In this document: piece after piece, positions 7,904-10,075 of the stretch
Numbering within the stretch: the first letter of the stretch is position 1
Layout of the letters: each line of letters opens with the position of its first letter
Origin: an uncultured Rhodospirillaceae bacterium
GTDB taxonomy: Bacteria > Pseudomonadota > Alphaproteobacteria > Rhodospirillales > Casp-alpha2
Direction of reading: 5' to 3'
DNA: 61,557 bases
Assembly: GCA_913030825.1 (NCBI GenBank)
Contig: CAJWCU010000021.1
Coordinates: 1-61,557 of the forward strand
Translations under genes and position numbers: made by a program
Notes under the pieces: generated by a model
Seen by the model: only the letters and a program-made list of their open reading frames with translations
The model's database searches: none
Told to the model about the DNA's origin: nothing

Positions 7904-8929
7904 ATGAACACCATCGCCAACGATTACCTTCCGCCGGCCGAAGGGCCATCTTGCTGGACCGGGCCCGAACTGGCCGGCTCCGGTTCCTGGATCATTGAAT
8001 TGGAAGACGCCGAGCGCGCCGCGATCATGGCGGCGCTCGACGCCACCGAAGGCCGCGAGGCCCTGGAGCTGAAGGCCGATGATTTCGAACTCGGTGCGTT
8101 CAACGACAAGCTGCGCGGGATGGCTCACGACGTCGCCTTCGGCACAGGCTTCGCCATGTTGCGGACTGGCCTGGGCGAGTTGGGCGAAGAACAGGCCCGG
8201 CGGCTAATCTGGGGCCTGGGCCAGCACATGGGCGTGCCGCAGATCCAGGACGCCAGCAACACCCTGCTTCACGACATCCGCGACACCGGCGCCGACATCG
8301 AAAAGCAGCACAACATCCGCACCTATCAGACCAATCTGGCGCAGCCGTTCCACAACGACGGCGGCGACATCTTCGCCCTGTTCTGCCGGCGCCAGTCATC
8401 AAACGGCGGTCAGTCGCAGATCGTCAGCGCCCATGCCGTGTTCAACGAAATCCTGAACCGCCGCCCGGACCTGGCCAAGGTGCTGAGCGAGCCGTTTTAT
8501 TTCGACGCCCGCGGCCAGAACCTGCCGGGCAAACCCTGGTACCAGGCGCTGCCGATTTTCCAGAACTACGGCGGCCGCTGGTTCGTCATGTACAAGCGTC
8601 ATTACATTGATTACGCTCAACGGTCGGATGAAATCCCGCGCCTGACGGAAAAGCAGATCGAGGCGCTGGACCTGATGGATGCGCTTTGCGCCGACCCCGC
8701 CTTCCATCTGGCGTTCGAGATGTCGCCGGGCGACATGGTCGTCGGCAACAATTTCACCACCCTGCATGCGCGCTCTGCCTACAAGGATATGGGCCCGACG
8801 ACCGGGGACAAGCGGCATATGCTGCGTCTGTGGCTCGGCGTGCCCGGCGGCGTGGCTTTGCCGCCGGCCTTTGAAGAGACCCGCGAGTTCGGTCCGCTTT
8901 TCCAGACGACGGAACGCATCGCGATATAA
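7904..8929 (+). CDS. TauD/TfdA-family Fe(II)/2-oxoglutarate dioxygenase
   Basis: 341 residues, the normal size. The metal triad is visible: His150 and Asp152 in QPFHNDGGD, and distal His288 in NNFTTLHARSAY; the 2-oxoglutarate-binding arginine is in HMLRLWLG. TauD/TfdA enzymes hydroxylate small acids such as taurine, 2,4-D or gamma-butyrobetaine in the cytoplasm. The substrate is unknown; the shared upstream element with the sulfo/phosphonopyruvate decarboxylase-like genes at 19.4-20.7 kb hints at organosulfonate or organophosphonate use, which is inference. It is followed by the micropeptide region on the same strand. Confidence 0.87.
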   Translation: MNTIANDYLPPAEGPSCWTGPELAGSGSWIIELEDAERAAIMAALDATEGREALELKADDFELGAFNDKLRGMAHDVAFGTGFAMLRTGLGELGEEQARRLIWGLGQHMGVPQIQDASNTLLHDIRDTGADIEKQHNIRTYQTNLAQPFHNDGGDIFALFCRRQSSNGGQSQIVSAHAVFNEILNRRPDLAKVLSEPFYFDARGQNLPGKPWYQALPIFQNYGGRWFVMYKRHYIDYAQRSDEIPRLTEKQIEALDLMDALCADPAFHLAFEMSPGDMVVGNNFTTLHARSAYKDMGPTTGDKRHMLRLWLGVPGGVALPPAFEETREFGPLFQTTERIAI

Positions 8930-9103
8930 AATTTCGCGTCTTGACACTGTCTGAGAATTTTATTATCGAACTTAACTGTTCGTTATGATATTCTTTCTAC
9001 GCTACCAGAAGGTGGAAGTGCCTTGCGTGGCGTAGCCGTCGAACGAGGCACCGGACCGGGGACCAACCCCGGCGTTGGATGTCCGTTCATCAGGAGCAGA
9101 CAG
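8930..9103 (+). promoter_or_regulatory. AT-rich promoter region and hairpin leader ahead of the first micropeptide
   Basis: Directly after the dioxygenase the base composition turns AT-rich. TTGACA stands at 8941-8946 and a good -10, TATGAT, at 8984-8989 with a poor -35 before it. A short inverted repeat CGAAC-N6-GTTCG (8967-8982) lies just upstream of that -10. Further on, CCGGGG-ACCAA-CCCCGG (9056-9072) forms a hairpin 19 bases before the AGGAG of the micropeptide gene. Exact promoter boundaries are uncertain. Confidence 0.4.
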
Positions 9104-9202
9104 ATGAGACTGACCAAGCGCGACTTTTCCGGCATTCCCGCGACGATCACATTGCCGCGTGAAAACGATCACCCTTTGGAAGGCCCGCACCCGACCGATT
9201 GA
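9104..9202 (+). CDS. Micropeptide A (32 residues), ends DHPLEGPHPTD
   Basis: A 32-codon frame with a textbook ribosome site: AGGAG (9092-9096) seven bases before ATG. It starts MRLTKRDFSGIPATITL and ends ENDHPLEGPHPTD. A second frame at 9431-9484 ends EKDHPLNGPHPTD. Over the last 14 codons, stop included, the two differ at seven codons, five of them synonymous (Asp, His, Pro, Leu, Thr), which is the mark of selection on peptide rather than DNA. No signal peptide or membrane segment; hydrophilic, rich in His and Pro in its tail. Function unknown; possibilities are a RiPP-like precursor, a regulatory peptide or a small partner protein. No recognised RiPP enzyme is adjacent apart from the dioxygenase just upstream. 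Confidence 0.6.
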   Translation: MRLTKRDFSGIPATITLPRENDHPLEGPHPTD

Positions 9203-9263
9203 CGGCGTGGCGAACCTTCCCTCGGTCGGCTTCCGATGCGCCGAACCGGGATGCCGGATGCAT

Positions 9264-9352
9264 TTGACGAATACCAGCTTTGCCCAAACAATGCTGGTAT
9301 CCGCGCCTGCGGGCCCGATAGGGTCCGGGTTGTCCGCCCCTGCAAGGCGGAC
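9264..9352 (+). promoter_or_regulatory. Putative promoter/operator and hairpin series upstream of micropeptide B
   Basis: TTGACG (9264-9269), a 17-base spacer and AACAAT (9287-9292) make a possible promoter. An inverted repeat ATACCAGC/GCTGGTAT (9271-9300) spans the spacer and -10 like an operator. Downstream are two more perfect or near-perfect hairpins, GGGCCC-GATA-GGGTCC (9311-9326, one G-U pair) and GTCCGCC-N7-GGCGGAC (9332-9352). The set could be an operator plus a structured 5' leader or riboswitch; it matches no RNA family I can name. Confidence 0.45.
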
Positions 9353-9430
9353 CACCGAACCGCCCCGACCCGGCCCTGGGCCGCAAGACGGGCACGACCG
9401 ATGGCAACCTACGGCAACGGAGCCACGCCA

Positions 9431-9484
9431 ATGACCGCGCATGAAAAAGACCATCCCCTGAACGGCCCGCACCCGACGGATTGA
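9431..9484 (+). CDS. Micropeptide B (17 or 27 residues), paralogue of micropeptide A
   Basis: MTAHEKDHPLNGPHPTD from ATG 9431, with GGAG eight bases upstream. An in-frame ATG at 9401 would give 27 residues beginning MATYGNGATP, which extends the similarity with micropeptide A (Ala-Thr shared) but has a weaker ribosome site. The frame is open further upstream to 9236, but that part overlaps strong hairpins and is probably leader. The conserved core is E-x-D-H-P-L-x-G-P-H-P-T-D at the extreme C-terminus in both copies. Function unknown. Confidence 0.55.
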   Translation: MTAHEKDHPLNGPHPTD

Positions 9485-9563
9485 GCCTCGGCCGGATTTT
9501 CCGGCGGAAGAGCATCGTCCGTTACACGGGGGTTCTACCCTGAATTCTCCCTCCCATGACGGC

Positions 9564-9599
9564 ATGCCCGTCCGGCCACAGCCCCGGCCGGACGGGCAT
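9564..9599 (+). terminator. Strong 14-bp hairpin downstream of the micropeptide pair
   Basis: ATGCCCGTCCGGCC, eight-base loop, GGCCGGACGGGCAT: a 14-bp perfect stem 80 bases after micropeptide B. No T-run follows, so if it terminates it does so without the classic U tract; it may instead protect the 3' end of the transcript. Confidence 0.45.
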
Positions 9600-9630
9600 C
9601 GCCGCGCGCCGCACGCGTCGATCGACCGAT

Positions 9631-9665
9631 GCATACGCCTGAAACCCGGACGGGTTTCAGTATGC
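9631..9665 (+). repeat. Second stem-loop between the micropeptide region and the next gene
   Basis: GCATA, three unpaired bases, CTGAAACCC, tetraloop GGAC, GGGTTTCAG, TATGC: a 9-bp stem extended by 5 bp across a bulge. It lies 72 bases before the next start codon and could be a terminator, a leader structure or a DNA-binding site. Confidence 0.4.
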
Positions 9666-9736
9666 GCATTGCAGACATTCCCCCGCCTTTACGGTAAAAC
9701 AGGCAGGTCAAGTTACGGCATCCAAGGGAGCACGAT

Positions 9737-10075
9737 ATGAGTTCCTACGAAGAAGAATTGCGCCGCCAGCAGCAGTTCCTGCGCAAGGCGGAGATGCTGA
9801 TTTCCCAGGCCAACCGGGAAATCATCGGCCCCCTGATCCCCGACATCACCGAAGCCCGGGTCATCAACTTCGCCCGGGCGGTGGCCCACCTGCGCGGACG
9901 CTACCTTCAGGCGGCCTTCAACATCACCAACGTTGCCGACGGCCACGCCCCTTCCGACGCCGAAATCACCAACCTTCGTAAGTATCGCGACATTTACGAA
10001 GAGGCCAAGAAGGCCTATGAGGAACTGACACACGCCATCGAACGGGGATATATCCATATCTCCGACGAAGAATAA
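9737..10075 (+). CDS. Small helical hypothetical protein
   Basis: 112 residues, start ATG 9737 preceded by AAGGGAG. The sequence is highly charged and helical (YEEELRRQQQFLRKAEMLISQANREI, EITNLRKYRDIYEEAKKAYEELTHAIERG), with no signal peptide, membrane segment or cysteine. It reads like a small cytoplasmic helical-bundle or coiled-coil protein. I recognise no family. It begins a run of plus-strand genes but is 116 bases from the hydrolase that follows, so co-transcription is possible but not certain. Confidence 0.75.
   Translation: MSSYEEELRRQQQFLRKAEMLISQANREIIGPLIPDITEARVINFARAVAHLRGRYLQAAFNITNVADGHAPSDAEITNLRKYRDIYEEAKKAYEELTHAIERGYIHISDEE

Follow-up and report, generated by a model that had tools for sequence, protein, structure and literature searches.

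The window is a 61,557-nt stretch of DNA from an uncultured Rhodospirillaceae bacterium, and its forward strand carries two very short genes whose products both end in [DE]HPLxGPHPTD. Copy 1 (9104..9202) runs from an ATG at 9104 to a stop codon at 9202 and encodes the 32-aa peptide MRLTKRDFSGIPATITLPRENDHPLEGPHPTD behind a forward-strand Shine-Dalgarno sequence, AGGAG (9092..9096), with a 7-nt spacer; an in-frame TTG upstream, at 9023, is a possible alternative start and would give 59 aa. Copy 2 (9431..9484), from an ATG at 9431 to a stop at 9484, encodes the 17-aa peptide MTAHEKDHPLNGPHPTD, or 27 aa from the other in-frame ATG at 9401, and follows the sequence GGAG (9419..9422, forward strand) with an 8-nt spacer. 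A first-pass annotation had proposed both frames with these ribosome sites, and its coordinates agree with ours. Its comparison of the copies over the final 14 codons, stop included, was reproduced as well: seven codons differ, and five of the differences are synonymous. Copy 1 was found in all eight genomes of the window's genus, with the ATG aligning in 8/8 and the ribosome site kept as RGGAG in eight members. Copy 2 was found only in the window's genome and in G046, where the 17-mer is identical. In the genome of the window, searching recovered both copies and, within a frame of 349 aa, a single weak match (E 0.1, 64% identity). The matches in relatives and the codon pattern agree with the earlier proposal of a paralogous pair of real peptide genes, maintained at the peptide level; that observation is confirmed as correct and understated.

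The two genes lie in a gap of 807 nt, previously put at about 800 bases, between the stop of a TauD-family dioxygenase gene (7904-8929, Pfam PF02668) and a gene at 9737-10075, which encodes 112 aa, is conserved in the genus and gave no Pfam match above cut-off and no NCBIfam or PADLOC match. A dyad, CGAAC-N6-GTTCG (8967..8982), is a possible operator and stands just upstream of a -10-like TATGAT (8984-8989), both within a block conserved across the genus; among eight genus sequences the dyad reads CGAAC/GTTCG in four and CGAAT/ATTCG in two (L036, L039) and is broken in two (L037, L043). Two hairpins are predicted on the forward strand in the 5' leader of copy 1 (9018..9073), where the fold of 9010-9104 is weak (MFE -38.1 kcal/mol, z -1.8). 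The spacer preceding copy 2 (9205..9431, forward strand) is structured, with the hairpins ATACCAGC/GCTGGTAT and GTCCGCC/GGCGGAC and an MFE of -105.3 kcal/mol (z -3.2), and may itself act as an independent regulatory RNA. A large part of this spacer resembles G046. After copy 2, the segment 9484-9620 folds with z -3.1, and a perfect 14-bp inverted repeat with no T-run (9564..9599) is a possible transcript 3' end. The window and G046 are nearly identical in 9484-9620. Rfam 15 gave no match at gathering score for the window, the six sub-threshold matches in 8930-9740 all being far below it.

Further copies, for which a tblastn and profile search had been advised, were found in number across the order, in a second order and in phages. 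With the 17-mer as query, 22 of the 317 genomes of the order matched at E<=0.01, one of them (G027) through a longer protein, and a profile matched 33/317 at E<=0.005, so that the window's peptides are beyond chance. Inspection of translations in the window's family placed the short form in 30 of 48 genomes and 10 of 14 genera, including G033 at E 0.02; the motif is thus present in related genomes, on which the earlier reading had been made to depend. The long form alone was found in G027, of the same family, and in G008 and G010 (family f2). The peptide was not detected in 18 of the 48 family genomes, some of which are incomplete. In a second alphaproteobacterial order the profile matched 20/43 genomes at E<=0.01, distributed by family as f135 8/14, f202 8/11, f203 0/7 and f204 4/11. 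A class control of 385 genomes contained three motif carriers, namely the window's own genome, G691 and G343; two weaker, partial matches in the same control, LQGPHPTDQ (G411) and DHPLGGPHG (G552), were judged to be chance. The phylum control (398 genomes, E<=0.01) gave, beyond the window's own genome, three matches, all partial and without the PTD-stop ending.

At least 25 of 52 pattern matches in a named collection were confirmed, including Pacificispira spongiicola, Marivibrio halodurans and Rhodospirillaceae MAGs, and counting in the RsmH fusion and one long form described below. This figure is a lower bound, because the tblastn step dropped true phage copies (2 confirmed, against 19 with another first row). 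Contigs L082 and L085 are labelled 'Candidatus Uhrbacteria' and 'Mesoflavibacter'; their units are like the alphaproteobacterial ones described here, and the labels look wrong. Plasmids and INPHARED phages gave no match when searched with the peptide, which is a weak test, as tblastn with 21-24 residues is insensitive.

In total, 58 distinct units were collected. Their short forms have about 14-34 residues (e.g. MDQEHPWSGPHPTD, MYEKDHPLDGPHPTD and MPDEEHPLNGPHPTD), these lengths being approximate since start codons were picked by the best ribosome site; at least five of the six bases of AGGAGA precede the chosen start in 32/58 units. The heads are variable, not conserved between most genera and as short as 4-5 residues, and the tail is nearly fixed. 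Selection at the peptide level, which the first-pass annotation had singled out for checking, was assessed over nine core codons in 54 short units picked by the motif, giving a pS of 0.71 against a pN of 0.034. The units left out were those of more than 40 aa (L048, L094, L160 and L084), L084 through a wrong automatic start, being in fact a normal short unit; some of the units come from near-identical genomes, such as L114/L115 and L120/L121. The tail residues G, P, H, P, T and D are invariant in the 54 short units, and this conservation of GPHPTD is ascertained, because the expression by which the units were gathered required them. Variants outside the collection include GPFPTD, GPRPTD and GLHPTN in short forms and GPYPTD and RPHPTD in long forms. 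The first half of the motif also varies, with HPT, HPA, HPC, HPW, HTL and YPM occurring. Some members carry 2-5 extra residues after the motif, and therefore a free C-terminus is not required.

The first-pass annotation knew of no family with this motif, and we also found none. One to three short forms each were compared with Pfam, NCBIfam, PHROGs, PADLOC and PDB with no match, a weak test with such very short peptides; a profile of the peptide gave 0 matches in the databases against which it was tested, and Rfam likewise offered no family. The strings GPHPTD and HPLxGPH (with D, N, E, Q or K at x) are absent from the full text of 5.39 million open-access papers. The HPLxGPHPTD micropeptides are apparently a new, undescribed family.

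Upstream regions of 53 units were scanned for sigma-54 -24/-12 boxes, one more unit having less than 60 nt upstream. Sixteen regions scored at least 6 of 8 and twelve at least 7, where dinucleotide shuffles gave expectations of 1.0 and 0.08 and random native windows of the same loci 0.84 and 0.08, respectively. Fourteen of the 16 boxes, in units of f135, f202, f204 and genus g6, are found 41-47 or 83-88 nt upstream of the start used; the remaining two (L161, L040) are spaced differently and could have arisen by chance. Four variants outside the collecting expression (L117, L118, L119 and L123), scanned apart, score 6-7. No box scoring at least 6 of 8 was found for 37/53 units, the window's two among them. 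Of 19 genomes examined, 18 encode RpoN, four of them from the window's genus; the exception, G709, is an incomplete MAG. On these sequence grounds, the units of f135, f202, f204 and genus g6 would belong to a sigma-54 regulon, and the window's own copies would not. Sites for NtrC, NifA, NorR and FlbD were each found upstream of 0/14 sigma-54-type units (expected 0.26, 0.81, 0.17 and 0.00, respectively), and a search for a common activator site upstream of the 16 units found no 8-mer in more than four and no dyad in more than two. Terminator-like hairpins follow 15/54 units against 2.9 expected, in a loose scan of which several hits are doubtful by eye. In several of the family's genera (L155, L156, L030, L031, L064, L067) a short inverted repeat, GCC-AGAAY-GGC, was noticed by eye directly before the ribosome site.

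The neighbourhoods of 44 loci, several with short flanks, were compared. The earlier question whether homologues always follow a TauD-like gene is answered in the negative: TauD lies beside the peptide in 8/44 loci, all of the window's genus, and TauD as a partner was rejected on this ground. Upstream lies guaB-rsmB in much of the window's family (RsmB being identified in the window by Pfam and GuaB by eye), and RsmB relatives occur in 19/44 loci. Other neighbours, identified by eye and often on the opposite strand, include MsrA, DehI-like, YaiI-like, LipB, acylphosphatase and SpmA-like genes, among more, and the peptide gene occupies several unrelated chromosomal loci. Of the classes first guessed for the window's peptides, a RiPP-like product with TauD as modifier is not supported, because TauD adjoins the peptide only in one genus; a small regulatory peptide or a partner in a larger complex remains the best class.

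The motif also stands on larger proteins. In a single genome of another family (G343) it forms the N-terminus of RsmH (TIGR00006), behind a ribosome site. A role in 16S rRNA maturation, considered for the rsmB neighbour and this fusion, was not adopted, as it rests on two single events. The long form, present in four genomes (G008, G010, G023 and G027), has 132-153 residues of the pattern MLNIAPL...HPLxGPHPTDLxxLF; one example gave no Pfam match. Between them, its loci contain a sensor kinase, a c-type cytochrome, a beta-propeller, a Rieske protein and a heavy-metal-binding/YHS protein. Fourteen more distant relatives of the long form were found, and the ten inspected all have no motif. In the order, apparently disordered proteins of ~100-160 aa (L176-L191) start with M-x-IAPLxYERxAVLVSPL; HPLxGPHPTD or a close variant is present in four members of this family and absent from the ten others inspected.

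Phage copies encode a 16-residue peptide, MKPKN[DE]HPLDGPHPTD, without a hydrophobic stretch by eye. Two IMG/VR contigs were first found with MKPKNDHPLDGPHPTD, between an 84-aa holin-like gene and Rz/Rz1; the term holin-like was assigned by eye, with no PHROG lysis call, and the Rz/Rz1 spanins were identified by PHROGs. A phage-led alignment placed the peptide between the holin-like and Rz/Rz1 genes in 19/19 motif contigs. These contigs contain seven DNA versions of the peptide, with only a D to E change, and their identity to the first phage falls to 59% in the holin-like protein and 74% in Rz. When cassettes were found independently of the motif, through holin-like or Rz similarity, the peptide was intact in 12/19; of the seven without it, four have a shorter holin-like gene and three a different upstream gene. 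The peptide is therefore not needed for lysis, and by eye it has no membrane segment or enzymatic domain, so that among lysis-gene criteria only its location in the cassette was seen. Within the lysis cassette, judged from these contigs, the peptide gene is accessory yet strongly conserved.

Searches for the identity of the phage gave one weak match, with 29% identity across one third of the query, and no INPHARED match. Its ribonucleotide reductase matched 201 records, 127 of them from Streptomyces phages; an alphaproteobacterial host is likely, because the best ten of the 201 matches are all from alphaproteobacterial phages, with Puniceispirillum phage HMO-2011 ranking first (67%). The clade (L098, L192-L202 and L225-L243) carries genes for ribonucleotide reductase, thymidylate synthase, Hsp20 and, by eye, a glycosyltransferase-like protein, and has no close INPHARED relative by the queries tried.

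The best reading of these data, to which we give a probability of roughly 0.55, is that the family, which phages carry too, would consist of trans-acting docking peptides for a conserved partner. We infer a soluble ligand working in trans, the decapeptide of which would bind in a groove on a conserved cytoplasmic partner; docking would change the activity or location of that partner. The peptide would be made when its regulated promoter fires; phages would bring along the ligand of the host and express it at a late stage of infection, with the same effect, and on RsmH and the longer, apparently disordered protein the same ten residues would serve as a docking tag. Carriage beside cell-lysis genes suggests that the tail docks on an important cell component. 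A wider form of this idea is tentative and in our estimate doubtful: HPLxGPHPTD may be a portable ligand for one conserved putative receptor, made as a free peptide under sigma-54 or other regulated promoters, attached as a tag to RsmH and to a disordered protein of a redox/metal locus, and captured by a phage clade in its lysis cassette so as to work that receptor when infection ends. If true, it would mean a micropeptide-receptor control system common to host and phage and invisible to annotation through its size.

Unlikely, in our judgement, is a precursor peptide whose invariant tail would be the substrate for a modified peptide or cofactor, as in PqqA or RiPPs. The small size, fixed C-terminal part and variable head would suit such a role, which would fit the phage cassette also, and in the one phage locus scanned the upstream DNA encodes a 753-aa protein weakly similar to DNA methyltransferases; however, no modifying enzyme common to the loci was seen among the neighbourhoods compared, with heads of 4-5 residues there is no space for a leader, and the motif occurs at the N-terminus of an rRNA methyltransferase and inside longer proteins. 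PqqA-type precursors resemble the window's family in having a gene of ~20 residues with a conserved core that can be freestanding, as some pqqA genes are, and differ in that here no shared modifying enzyme or leader is seen and the core is also fused to RsmH.

The position of all 19 aligned phage copies between the holin-like gene and Rz/Rz1 could also point to an effector of lysis or of the envelope, acting on the holin, the spanin or wall synthesis and timing lysis in phages and an envelope response in cells. We consider this quite unlikely, given that no signal or membrane segment is visible by eye, that seven of 19 related cassettes do not have the peptide and that no common envelope neighbour was seen beside the cellular copies.

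Very unlikely is a cis-acting leader or dual-function small RNA, in which translation of the frame, or ribosome stalling at the tail, would control the transcript or the next gene. The next gene varies between lineages and often points in the opposite direction; leader peptides were rejected on the ground that downstream genes differ in family and direction. The structured leader and spacer of the window, the proline-rich end and the short inverted repeat that recurs, by eye, in the leaders of several genera are what such a mechanism might show, but by eye the leaders of most genera cannot be aligned beyond that repeat, whereas the peptide can, and the motif also occurs in mid-protein or 2-5 residues before a stop. 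TnaC and SpeFL are likewise short and strongly conserved at the C-terminal end, beside the stop codon; in contrast to them, no conserved downstream gene is found here, and part of the units have promoter-like and terminator-like ends of their own.

Binding of metal through the two histidines and flanking acids is highly improbable: although the H-x5-H spacing with its flanking acids, and long-form loci with c-type cytochromes, a heavy-metal-binding/YHS protein and a sensor kinase, would be compatible with it, the first histidine is naturally replaced by Y and the second by F or R in short forms and by Y in a long form, and a metal ligand as the main role was rejected on these variants of both positions. 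Chance or artefact, for which only the very short frames and the abundance of open frames in GC-rich DNA speak, is refuted by conservation across two orders and phages and is practically negligible.

That a core of ten residues persists in two orders and in phages makes an important binding target probable, and the ligand could itself serve as the bait for it. The units also point to a layer of genes below 20 codons in length and missed by annotation, some of them apparently behind regulated promoters. The phage copies suggest that some control point of the host makes such a gene worth its place in a lysis cassette. As putative trans-acting docking peptides, members of the family would be comparable to MciZ, SgrT and Sda, trans-acting bacterial small proteins of ~40 residues or more that are freestanding, regulated and soluble and have a single target; the window's family differs from them in its ~14-34 residues, in loci that vary by lineage and in the presence of the motif on larger proteins. 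NblA and CP12, small host regulators borne by cyanophages, are longer proteins with known partners. They share with the window's family that a small host protein is phage-carried and docks on a partner, as proposed here, and differ in that the conserved part here is ten residues, the partner is putative and the phage copy lies in a lysis cassette.
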